A stretch of 64,000 nucleotides of DNA from contig NZ_SDPU01000035.1 in NCBI RefSeq assembly GCF_004168035.1, positions 62,001-126,000 on the forward strand, in the 5' to 3' direction. The translations under genes and the position numbers were made by a program. Numbering within the stretch: position 1 is the first letter of the stretch; each line of letters opens with the position of its first letter. The DNA is from Nocardioides iriomotensis (GTDB lineage: Bacteria; Actinomycetota; Actinomycetes; Propionibacteriales; Nocardioidaceae). Below are positions 1-1,411 of this stretch, piece after piece. The notes beneath the pieces were generated by a model. The model did not search any database and was not told where the DNA came from. It saw nothing but the letters and a program-made list of their open reading frames with translations.

Positions 1-216
1 GTTGAACGACGCGGAGACGGGCTGCAGGGCGAGGATGAGCGCGACCAGGACCGCGCCCGTGGCGAGGCTGTTCTCCAGCAGCTGCAGGCCGGTGTCCTCG
101 GGGGAGAGCCGCTGCGCGGCGATGCCGGAGCCGACCACGGCGGCGACCAGGAACGCGGTCCCGACCAGCTCCGCCACAGCGCGACGCAGGTGCACGGGCC
201 GCACCGGCGGGTTCAC
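1..216 (-). CDS. Aquaporin (MIP) family channel, N-terminal part
   Basis: Only the first 72 codons are in the window; the gene runs off its left edge. The visible protein has two membrane segments typical of MIP channels, with AELVGTAFLV and GSGI in the first and NSLATGAVLVALI in the second, and it ends in PVSASFN, just where the first NPA pore motif should begin. The GTG start overlaps the arsR stop (GTGA), so the two are probably translated together. Aquaglyceroporins in ars operons are known to conduct arsenite; that role here is inferred from the neighbours arsR and arsI. Confidence 0.75.
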   Translation of the reverse strand, partial: MNPPVRPVHLRRAVAELVGTAFLVAAVVGSGIAAQRLSPEDTGLQLLENSLATGAVLVALILALQPVSASFN

Positions 217-581
217 CGGGTGACGAGCGAGGCGCGCAGCGCCTCGAGCGACGACGGCACGACGGAGTACCACATGTTGCGCCCGCGCTTCTCGGCCGTG
301 ACCAGGCCGGCGTTGGAGAGCACCTTGAGGTGGTGGCTCACGGTGCCCTGCGACCGCCCGACCGGCTCGGTCAGGTCGCACACGCACACCGCGCCGCCCT
401 CGGCGTTCGCGAGCAGCGAGACCAGGCGCAGCCGCACCGGGTCGCCCAGCGCGGCGAACCGCTCCGAGAGCACCTCCGCGTCGGGCTCGGGCAGCAGCGT
501 GGTCACCAGCGGGGTGCAGCACTCGTCCGCCGACGCCGCCGTACCCGGCCGCTCCACCAGCGGCAGCTCCTTCACGCCCAC
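213..581 (-). CDS. arsR: ArsR-family arsenite-responsive repressor
   Basis: Winged-helix repressor of 122 residues. The core (RFAALGDPVRLRLVSLL, then GTVSHHLKVLSNAGLV) is the ArsR helix-turn-helix. Possible metalloid ligands are a cysteine pair at 21-22 and a CVCD motif with Cys66 and Cys68; paired N-terminal cysteines plus one in the helix is the arrangement described for corynebacterial ArsR. The GTG at 581 was chosen because AAGGAGG lies five bases upstream; an ATG at 617 is possible but has no ribosome-binding site. It is divergent from arsI and coupled to the aquaporin gene. The operator at 627-648 suggests control of both directions, including itself. Confidence 0.88.
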   Translation of the reverse strand: MGVKELPLVERPGTAASADECCTPLVTTLLPEPDAEVLSERFAALGDPVRLRLVSLLANAEGGAVCVCDLTEPVGRSQGTVSHHLKVLSNAGLVTAEKRGRNMWYSVVPSSLEALRASLVTR

Positions 582-626
582 CCGGGCCTCCTTCTCTCGG
601 TGTCTCTCCGAAGTCATTCTGCCAAA

Positions 627-658
627 CCCATTGACTTCCATCAATGGGTGGGTACTGT
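627..658 (+). promoter_or_regulatory. ArsR operator on the arsI promoter
   Basis: A perfect inverted repeat, CCCATTGA-N6-TCAATGGG, spans 627-648. It overlaps a sigma70-type promoter for arsI: TTGACT at 631-636, a 16-base spacer, TACTGT at 653-658. The ATTGA/TCAAT core is of the kind bound by ArsR/SmtB repressors. Binding would cover the -35 box and the spacer and so block transcription until arsenite is bound. Confidence 0.8.
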
Positions 659-680
659 TCATCGCATCAGACGTATCGAC

Positions 681-698
681 AAGCATCGATGGATGCTT
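681..698 (+). promoter_or_regulatory. Second dyad in the arsI leader
   Basis: AAGCATC-GATG-GATGCTT is a perfect 7-base inverted repeat with a 4-base loop, immediately upstream of the arsI ribosome-binding site (GAGGAG at 703-708). It lies in the transcribed leader if the promoter at 631-658 is right. It could be an RNA hairpin affecting translation or mRNA stability, or a second protein site. Confidence 0.45.
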
Positions 699-713: not shown

Positions 714-1214
714 ATGTCCCGCGTCCAGCTCGCCCTCAACGTCGACGACATCGACGCCGCCGTCGACTTCTACTCCACGCTCTTCGACACCGAGCCGGCC
801 AAGCGTCGTCCGGGCTATGCCAACTTCGCCGTCGAGAACCCCCCGCTCAAGCTCGTGCTCTTCGAGAACGCCGGGGCGACCGGCACCCTCAACCACGTCG
901 GCGTCGAGCGCTCCTCGATGGAGGAGGTACAGGCCGAGGCGGACCGCCTCGAGGCCGCGGGACTCACGCTCGACGTCGAGGGCGACGTCGTGTGCTGCTA
1001 CGCCCGCCAGGACAAGCACTGGGTCACCGGGCCCGACGGCCAGCGCTGGGAGAACTACGTCGTCCTGGCGGACGCCCACCCCGAGCTCGAGGGCAAGGCG
1101 AGTGCCGAGCTCACCCAGCTCGAGTGCGCCGACGACGCGGCCGCCGGTGGCTGCTGCGCCGGCTTCGAGAACGCCGACCGCGCGGGTGCCGAGCGCGTGG
1201 AGGTGACCCGATGA
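714..1214 (+). CDS. arsI: ArsI C-As lyase (CadI-like VOC dioxygenase)
   Basis: Predicted non-haem Fe(II) dioxygenase that cleaves the carbon-arsenic bond of trivalent methyl- and aryl-arsenicals, giving arsenite. The 166-residue protein has the vicinal-oxygen-chelate fold. It keeps the residues known for ArsI: metal ligands Gln5, His61 and Glu113, and the substrate-binding thiol pair Cys94-Cys95 in VVCCYARQDKHW. A second cysteine pair lies near the C-terminus (GGCCAGF). Mycobacterial relatives are called CadI. The ATG has a good GAGGAG site, and the stop overlaps the next gene (ATGA). Because the product is arsenite, an exit route such as the aquaporin would make sense. Confidence 0.87.
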   Translation: MSRVQLALNVDDIDAAVDFYSTLFDTEPAKRRPGYANFAVENPPLKLVLFENAGATGTLNHVGVERSSMEEVQAEADRLEAAGLTLDVEGDVVCCYARQDKHWVTGPDGQRWENYVVLADAHPELEGKASAELTQLECADDAAAGGCCAGFENADRAGAERVEVTR

Positions 1215-1411
1215 ACCCGCTCGACACCTCGGGCATCCTCGCCCGCGAGATGATCCGTGACCGCGTCGAGCTGGCGCGCCACGCGCGGATCGCCGCGCTG
1301 GCCCGCTGCTGCCACCCGTCCACCTGGCGCCGCGCCGCCGGCCGGCTCCGCGAGGCGACCCGCTCCCTGCACCGAGCAACGACACCGGCCGCGTCCGTCT
1401 GCTGCGCCTGA
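1211..1411 (+). CDS. Small cysteine-pair protein of the ars operon
   Basis: A 66-residue basic protein whose ATG overlaps the arsI stop by ATGA, so it is very probably translated with arsI. I do not recognise a family. The N-terminal half is predicted helical (REMIRDRVELARHARIAALA) and is followed by a vicinal pair Cys-Cys-His; a second pair, Cys-Cys-Ala, ends the protein. Two vicinal thiol pairs in an arsenic operon suggest an As(III)-binding or chaperone role, but this is inference. Nothing indicates membrane insertion or secretion. Confidence 0.6.
   Translation: MNPLDTSGILAREMIRDRVELARHARIAALARCCHPSTWRRAAGRLREATRSLHRATTPAASVCCA

Follow-up and report, generated by a model that had tools for sequence, protein, structure and literature searches.

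Few bacterial resistance systems have been studied as closely as the arsenic operons, and ArsD, a protein of 120 amino acids encoded in them, acts as an As(III) metallochaperone and weak repressor. In the passages of PMC12607644 that describe them, the vicinal cysteine pairs of ArsD are placed at Cys12-13, 112-113 and 119-120. For the repressor ArsR, passages of PMC11868830 describe a site in the C. glutamicum protein to which one monomer contributes Cys15 and Cys16 and its partner contributes Cys55. A search of the open-access PMC literature found no paper on a small protein of the kind characterized below, and passages of PMC6514093, a survey of actinobacterial ars clusters, contain no description of one.

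The window, by which we mean the whole stretch of 64,000 nucleotides of Nocardioides iriomotensis DNA that was analysed, carries such a protein directly behind arsI (Table 1). A sequence-only reading had proposed a 66-residue protein with two vicinal cysteine pairs, whose start overlaps the arsI stop, and had ventured that it may be a new small arsenic chaperone. The observation is real and is confirmed in each of its parts: translation returns the 66-residue frame, the small-gene ATG and the arsI TGA share the letters ATGA, preceded by a putative ribosome-binding motif, and the protein contains Cys-Cys-His at residues 33-35 and Cys-Cys-Ala at residues 64-66, which places the pairs at 33-34 and 64-65. 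The word chaperone stays a putative label, read from the sequence. A promoter and terminator scan of positions 560-1560 gave no match.

Table 1. Positions, strands and supporting evidence of the features at the ars locus of the window.
Feature	Position	Strand	Basis
Start of aquaporin (MIP) gene; overlaps arsR stop, runs beyond the window	1..216	-	MIP E 6.7e-18, below cut-off
Divergent arsR, 134 aa, ECCT and CVCDL cysteines	213..617	-	NF033788, 88.8 bits against a cut-off of 55
Inverted repeat ACCCATTGACTTCCATCAATGGGT, arsR-arsI intergenic; possible operator, no chance control	626..649	.	sequence read
ATCGACAAGCATCGAT; possible operator, no chance control	675..690	.	sequence read
arsI, ArsI/CadI family, 166 aa	714..1214	+	NCBIfam NF041414 (ArsI_CadI), 185.6 bits, cut-off 116
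Shine-Dalgarno-like GGAGGTGA, within the last arsI codons, 4 nt upstream of ATG	1199..1206	+	read directly
Small di-cysteine protein gene, 66 aa	1211..1411	+	ORF read, homologues, purifying selection in homologues
Cys33-Cys34 codons, mid-protein pair (ARCCHPS)	1307..1312	+	read directly
Cys64-Cys65 codons, terminal pair (VCCA-stop)	1400..1405	+	read directly

The small gene has both arsI and a divergent CC-type arsR as neighbours. The pattern ATCGA-N6-TCGAT occurs in five of the nine arsI upstream regions printed, a count that carries no chance control. Beyond the aquaporin gene, outside the window, lies an arsC-like gene (best arsenate reductase model E 4.3e-28, below its cut-off). It forms a continuous run with the aquaporin gene and arsR, in which the arsR stop is overlapped by the start of the aquaporin gene. 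In this genome, neither Acr3 (TIGR00832) nor ArsD (PF06953) gave a match, and the ArsB model TIGR00935 gave a single one, of 83.8 bits, far under its cut-off of 415. The run of arsC-like, aquaporin and arsR genes, together with the lack of an Acr3 match in the genome, suggests that arsenic may leave the cell through the aquaporin.

A survey of the sequence flanking 245 distinct arsI genes found homologues both upstream and downstream of arsI. A tblastn search with the window protein retrieved, directly after arsI in genome G029, a 67-aa homologue (41%) with ARCCRPS in its middle and RCCA at its end; in a single-sequence search its E value is 1.1e-4 over 41 loci and 0.0013 over its own genome, a level at which most other matches of the genome-wide search look like chance. 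Besides the window and G029, the members that follow arsI are those of G061 and G005, both ending in CCPA, and L271, which ends in AACC; two further members in this position, L247 with the mid pair alone and L209 with a single final Cys, lack the terminal pair. Seven members precede arsI by 40-55 nt (L013, L014, L016, L017 and L019, of the Actinopolymorpha genus, and L015 and L022), and all seven have CC at the end. Of the 238 arsI genes that have 450 nt or more of sequence downstream, six are followed by a recognised copy, as is the arsI of the window; seven of 243 are preceded by one. A scan for short frames downstream of the same 238 genes printed ten frames with a terminal CC, four of which are the members of G029, G061, G005 and L271; the other six look like chance, and the scan left out the window, for which the kept copy had less than 450 nt downstream. 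The small gene is an optional companion of arsI: none is present at L237 (Nocardioides sp. CGMCC 1.13656), which has the highest-identity arsI of the genome-contig scan (94% over 128 residues). The ArsI of L237 ends in GACCA; in the ArsI of the window, the tail CC is internal, 18 residues short of the C-terminus, and the Cys-free extension that follows it leads up to the small gene. L236 and L271, contigs that bear the titles Acidobacteria MAG and Bacillus sp. AZ43, have arsI regions that resemble actinobacterial ones, and these titles may be taxonomic misassignments.

The proteins of this unnamed family have 50-76 residues. Homologues outside the strain are present in several actinobacterial families, and some of them stand away from arsI altogether. 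A profile built from 12 members, tails included, was run over 393 genomes of the class. In family f23, presumably Micromonosporaceae, it found 14 copies in 13 genomes, of ~64 aa each (for example MDPYLPETMAAERRRDLIAEAARHRLAALATCCRKS...GSACCANA), with the terminal pair in 14/14 and the mid pair in 12/14 (L385 and L388 are without it). When family f23 was searched, 13/22 genomes had the gene, comprising 11/12 of genus g74 and 2/5 of g101. All 14 copies have a divergent ArsR with an N-terminal Cys-Cys and a C.CD motif ~300-350 nt away, and no arsI was found beside any of them. Past this ArsR, an ArsO-like match (below the model cut-off) lies within 3 kb in eight of 12 g74 loci, and at least eight g74 loci have a second ArsR, ending in VCC. 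At one annotated locus, L376, an ArsK-like transporter comes next, with a score below the model cut-off; at the g101 loci L386 and L388, ArsR is the sole ars-type gene recognised by eye within ~5.5 kb. The proposed coupling to arsI is sound for the window, where it takes the form of the ATGA overlap, but the most constant partner of the small gene is a divergent arsenic-type ArsR and not ArsI. The same counts bear on the idea that the protein is an adaptor that docks on ArsI and either delivers MAs(III) to it or removes As(III) from it. Twelve loci have a terminal-CC copy adjoining arsI, which it follows in five and precedes in seven, and the window has its coupled start; set against the arsI-free f23 copies and the absence of the partner from most arsI genes, these make an adaptor role unlikely.

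The neighbouring ArsR also bears on the kind of ligand. The best solved relative of the window ArsR is the arsenic-responsive ArsR of PDB entry 6j0e, which we take to be the C. glutamicum protein mentioned above, and the two align ECCT on ECCT; the ArsR of f23 matches 6j0e too, third behind two Lmo1102 entries. Vicinal thiols bind Cd and Hg as well as arsenic, the enzyme family is itself named ArsI/CadI, and the window ArsR has a weak match to the CmtR model, all of which would fit a scavenger with a general thiol or redox function, or one for other metals (Cd, Zn), placed on an ars promoter and not specific for arsenic. The alignment with an arsenic-responsive repressor through ECCT, and the ArsO-like and ArsK-like genes near the f23 copies (both below model cut-offs), speak against a scavenger, to which we assign a low probability.

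Other searches reached further. Phylum-wide, six more genomes of 246 match; these proteins have no CC tails, and no arsI, ArsR or ArsO-like match lies in their 3-kb loci. A DNA pattern for LARCCxPS matches 13/197 genomes, and profile scans swept across its loci beyond G000 and G029 gave nothing convincing. Most weak matches from profile and sequence searches resemble chance frames within other genes, and in a plasmid collection neither the window protein nor one f23 member had a match. In genome G044 (L042), a protein with a mid pair (ARCCKPS) and without the terminal pair follows a methyltransferase-like gene, as read by eye; its 13-kb stretch holds no arsI, ArsR or ArsO-like match, the genome's own arsI being ~12.7 kb away. 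A broad and unnamed group of small, mostly Cys-poor proteins is present in genomes of g28, presumably Kribbella, and in the Actinopolymorpha genus, where there are several copies per genome.

The sequence-only reading called for conservation of both cysteine pairs, and this holds for one of them. Of the two results named as counting against that reading, a lack of homologues outside the strain and unconserved cysteines, neither was obtained, and its interpretation is partly supported. Among the aligned ars-linked members the terminal pair is kept in 26/27, with the CC of the window protein falling within its last six residues as in those 26, whereas the mid pair is lineage-specific (15/27). 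Nor is the histidine of the mid-protein Cys-Cys-His a family trait: it is present in the window, and in the 14 other members that have the mid pair its place is taken by R or K (CCR or CCK). Cysteines are concentrated in the ars-linked members, which hold 91 in 1,809 residues, 82 of the 91 paired; the other proteins hold 10 in 2,046. The tie between tail and neighbourhood was assessed with a profile (A5) of the N-terminus only, without the tail, nine of whose 14 seeds are ars-linked. Run over 414 loci, it yielded 66 family-like proteins, after rows without a Met near the profile start or with a product above 130 aa had been dropped; the window copy, itself a seed, matches at E 2e-8. Where arsI or a CC-type arsR lies no more than 1 kb away, 25 of 28 proteins have a terminal CC; of the 38 others, some of which have just 1.5 kb of flank, none has. 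The near-ars exceptions are L247, L209 and L239, of which L239 is a generic copy ~0.9 kb from arsR. The Fisher p of 3e-15 for this table is not to be taken literally, since it ignores relatedness, the loci were gathered with an ars bias and the profile used for f23 bore tails; in many cases the rows are close relatives (g28, f23), and most loci came from the arsI search.

Two cleaner tests are available. One is given by the f23 copies, which were found without reference to neighbourhood. The other is a contrast within four genomes of the Actinopolymorpha genus (G095, G097, G100 and G108, of g31), in which the ars-linked copy ends in CC and none of the eight other copies examined does. Within the set examined, the Cys tail is shown to be confined to ars neighbourhoods. 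The window protein appears to be one of a wider group of actinobacterial proteins, small, helical and mostly Cys-less, in which the terminal pair marks the ars-linked branch. The tail is also a feature of other ars products: in a background set of 1,737 distinct genes of at least 90 aa, taken with a crude caller from loci of at least 5 kb, CC falls within the last six residues in 93/140 ArsI, 24/117 ArsR, 0/16 ArsO-like and 1/1,464 of all other products. A C-terminal CC tail could be a shared docking module, acquired repeatedly by ArsI, ArsR and the small protein, the last acting as a free carrier that passes arsenic from tail to tail among enzyme, sensor and exit without ArsD or ArsA; we hold this extension to be doubtful.

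The reading frame is maintained as a protein. Among ten f23 homologues the mean pN/pS is 0.39 in the coding frame, compared with 1.20 and 2.13 in the two alternative frames; five homologues of g31 give 0.60, compared with 0.91 and 1.30. The protein reading frame is under purifying selection in these two sets. A chance open reading frame was ruled out on homologues, selection and the coupling signal taken together. Selection on the protein also weighs against a translated leader, whose Cys codons would sense charged tRNA-Cys and attenuate the genes downstream. The polycysteine open reading frames of mycobacteria are a precedent for attenuation at Cys codons, and the seven arsI-upstream copies, which end in CC 40-55 nt before arsI, have the layout that it calls for. 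In the window, the next gene lies on the opposite strand, and a crude gene caller found no single co-directional gene that follows the 17 other members; together with the selection, this makes a leader highly improbable.

The family searches identified no fitting family. Scans of Pfam and NCBIfam with the window protein and six relatives gave sub-threshold matches or none (for the window protein in Pfam, a sub-threshold BATS match alone), and the best PDB sequence match of the window protein has E 1.9. Membership of a known family was dismissed on these results. AlphaFold2, run with 27 aligned members, predicts one helix spanning residues 5-56 (mean pLDDT 80, pTM 0.42), in which confidence drops at residues 31-40, around CCHPS, and the terminal pair sits on a loose tail. 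Foldseek found zero matches of the mostly helical 66-mer model in the PDB, a result that is uninformative at a pTM of 0.42. In four members, an amphipathic helix 1 is unsupported (shuffle p 0.28-0.91), and the amphipathicity of helix 2 is nominal in two of the four (shuffle p 0.03 and 0.02).

The protein is basic, with a net charge of +5 to +9 in four members, a property that would be in keeping with a partner of ArsR that brings arsenic to the repressor or modulates it, in the manner of a second, ArsD-like regulator, and takes no direct part in detoxification. The divergent CC-type ArsR is common to arsI-linked and arsI-free copies, and at the two g101 loci described above it is the only ars-type gene recognised by eye; this constant presence speaks for an ArsR partner. 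A divergent ArsR would, however, accompany any target of ArsR, and the Pfam and NCBIfam scans disclosed no DNA-binding or other domain. We judge such a partner improbable.

On balance, the small protein is probably an accessory protein under ArsR control, with Cys pairs that would capture As(III) or methyl-As(III) so that it can be buffered or handed on. The divergent layout and the type of ArsR point to ArsR control and to induction by arsenic, which would lift the repression; the small protein would then be made together with ArsI by coupled translation. Its terminal Cys-Cys pair would bind As(III), and probably methyl-As(III), with the second pair, near mid-helix, assisting in the window protein. 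Its likely task would be to retain arsenic set free by ArsC or ArsI, and either pass it on or shield other thiols from it. Against this role, no known recipient is evident, neither ArsD nor Acr3 having been found in the genome; most arsI genes, that of L237 among them, are without the small gene, L247 and L209 lack the terminal pair, and the G044 protein, with its mid pair and no ars match in 13 kb, spoils a clean split. The profiles by which members were found contained CC tails or were seeded with ars-linked proteins, a choice that tilts the collection towards an arsenic reading.

A recurrent arsR-linked product that has a conserved Cys-pair end and belongs to no named family would give the arsenic operons a further accessory component. 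It would also put a small thiol peptide on offer for arsenic sensing or capture, and it provides a protein of 66 residues in which to test what the CC tails of ArsI and ArsR do.

Three comparisons place the small protein among described ones. The unnamed Cys-poor proteins (g28 MITPEVARAHIDEMHR..., Actinopolymorpha MNLLHEDLARAQ...) resemble it in the N-terminal stretch, which matches the N-terminus-only profile, to which the g28 and MNLLHEDL types each supplied one seed; unlike it, the 38 proteins of this sort have neither a terminal CC nor, in the nearest 1 kb, an arsI or CC-type arsR. With actinobacterial ArsI and ArsR it shares an identical terminal Cys-Cys signature and the same gene neighbourhoods, but there the tail ends an enzyme or a repressor and here it ends a separate protein of 60-76 aa. 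Like ArsD, it is small, encoded in an ars operon and equipped with several vicinal Cys pairs, one of them near the C-terminus; unlike ArsD, the metallochaperone and weak repressor that this genome appears to lack along with Acr3, it has no PF06953 match, is about half as long and is predicted to form a single helix. As part of the accessory-protein reading preferred here, and held with the same moderate confidence, it would be ArsD-like in its working and unrelated to ArsD.
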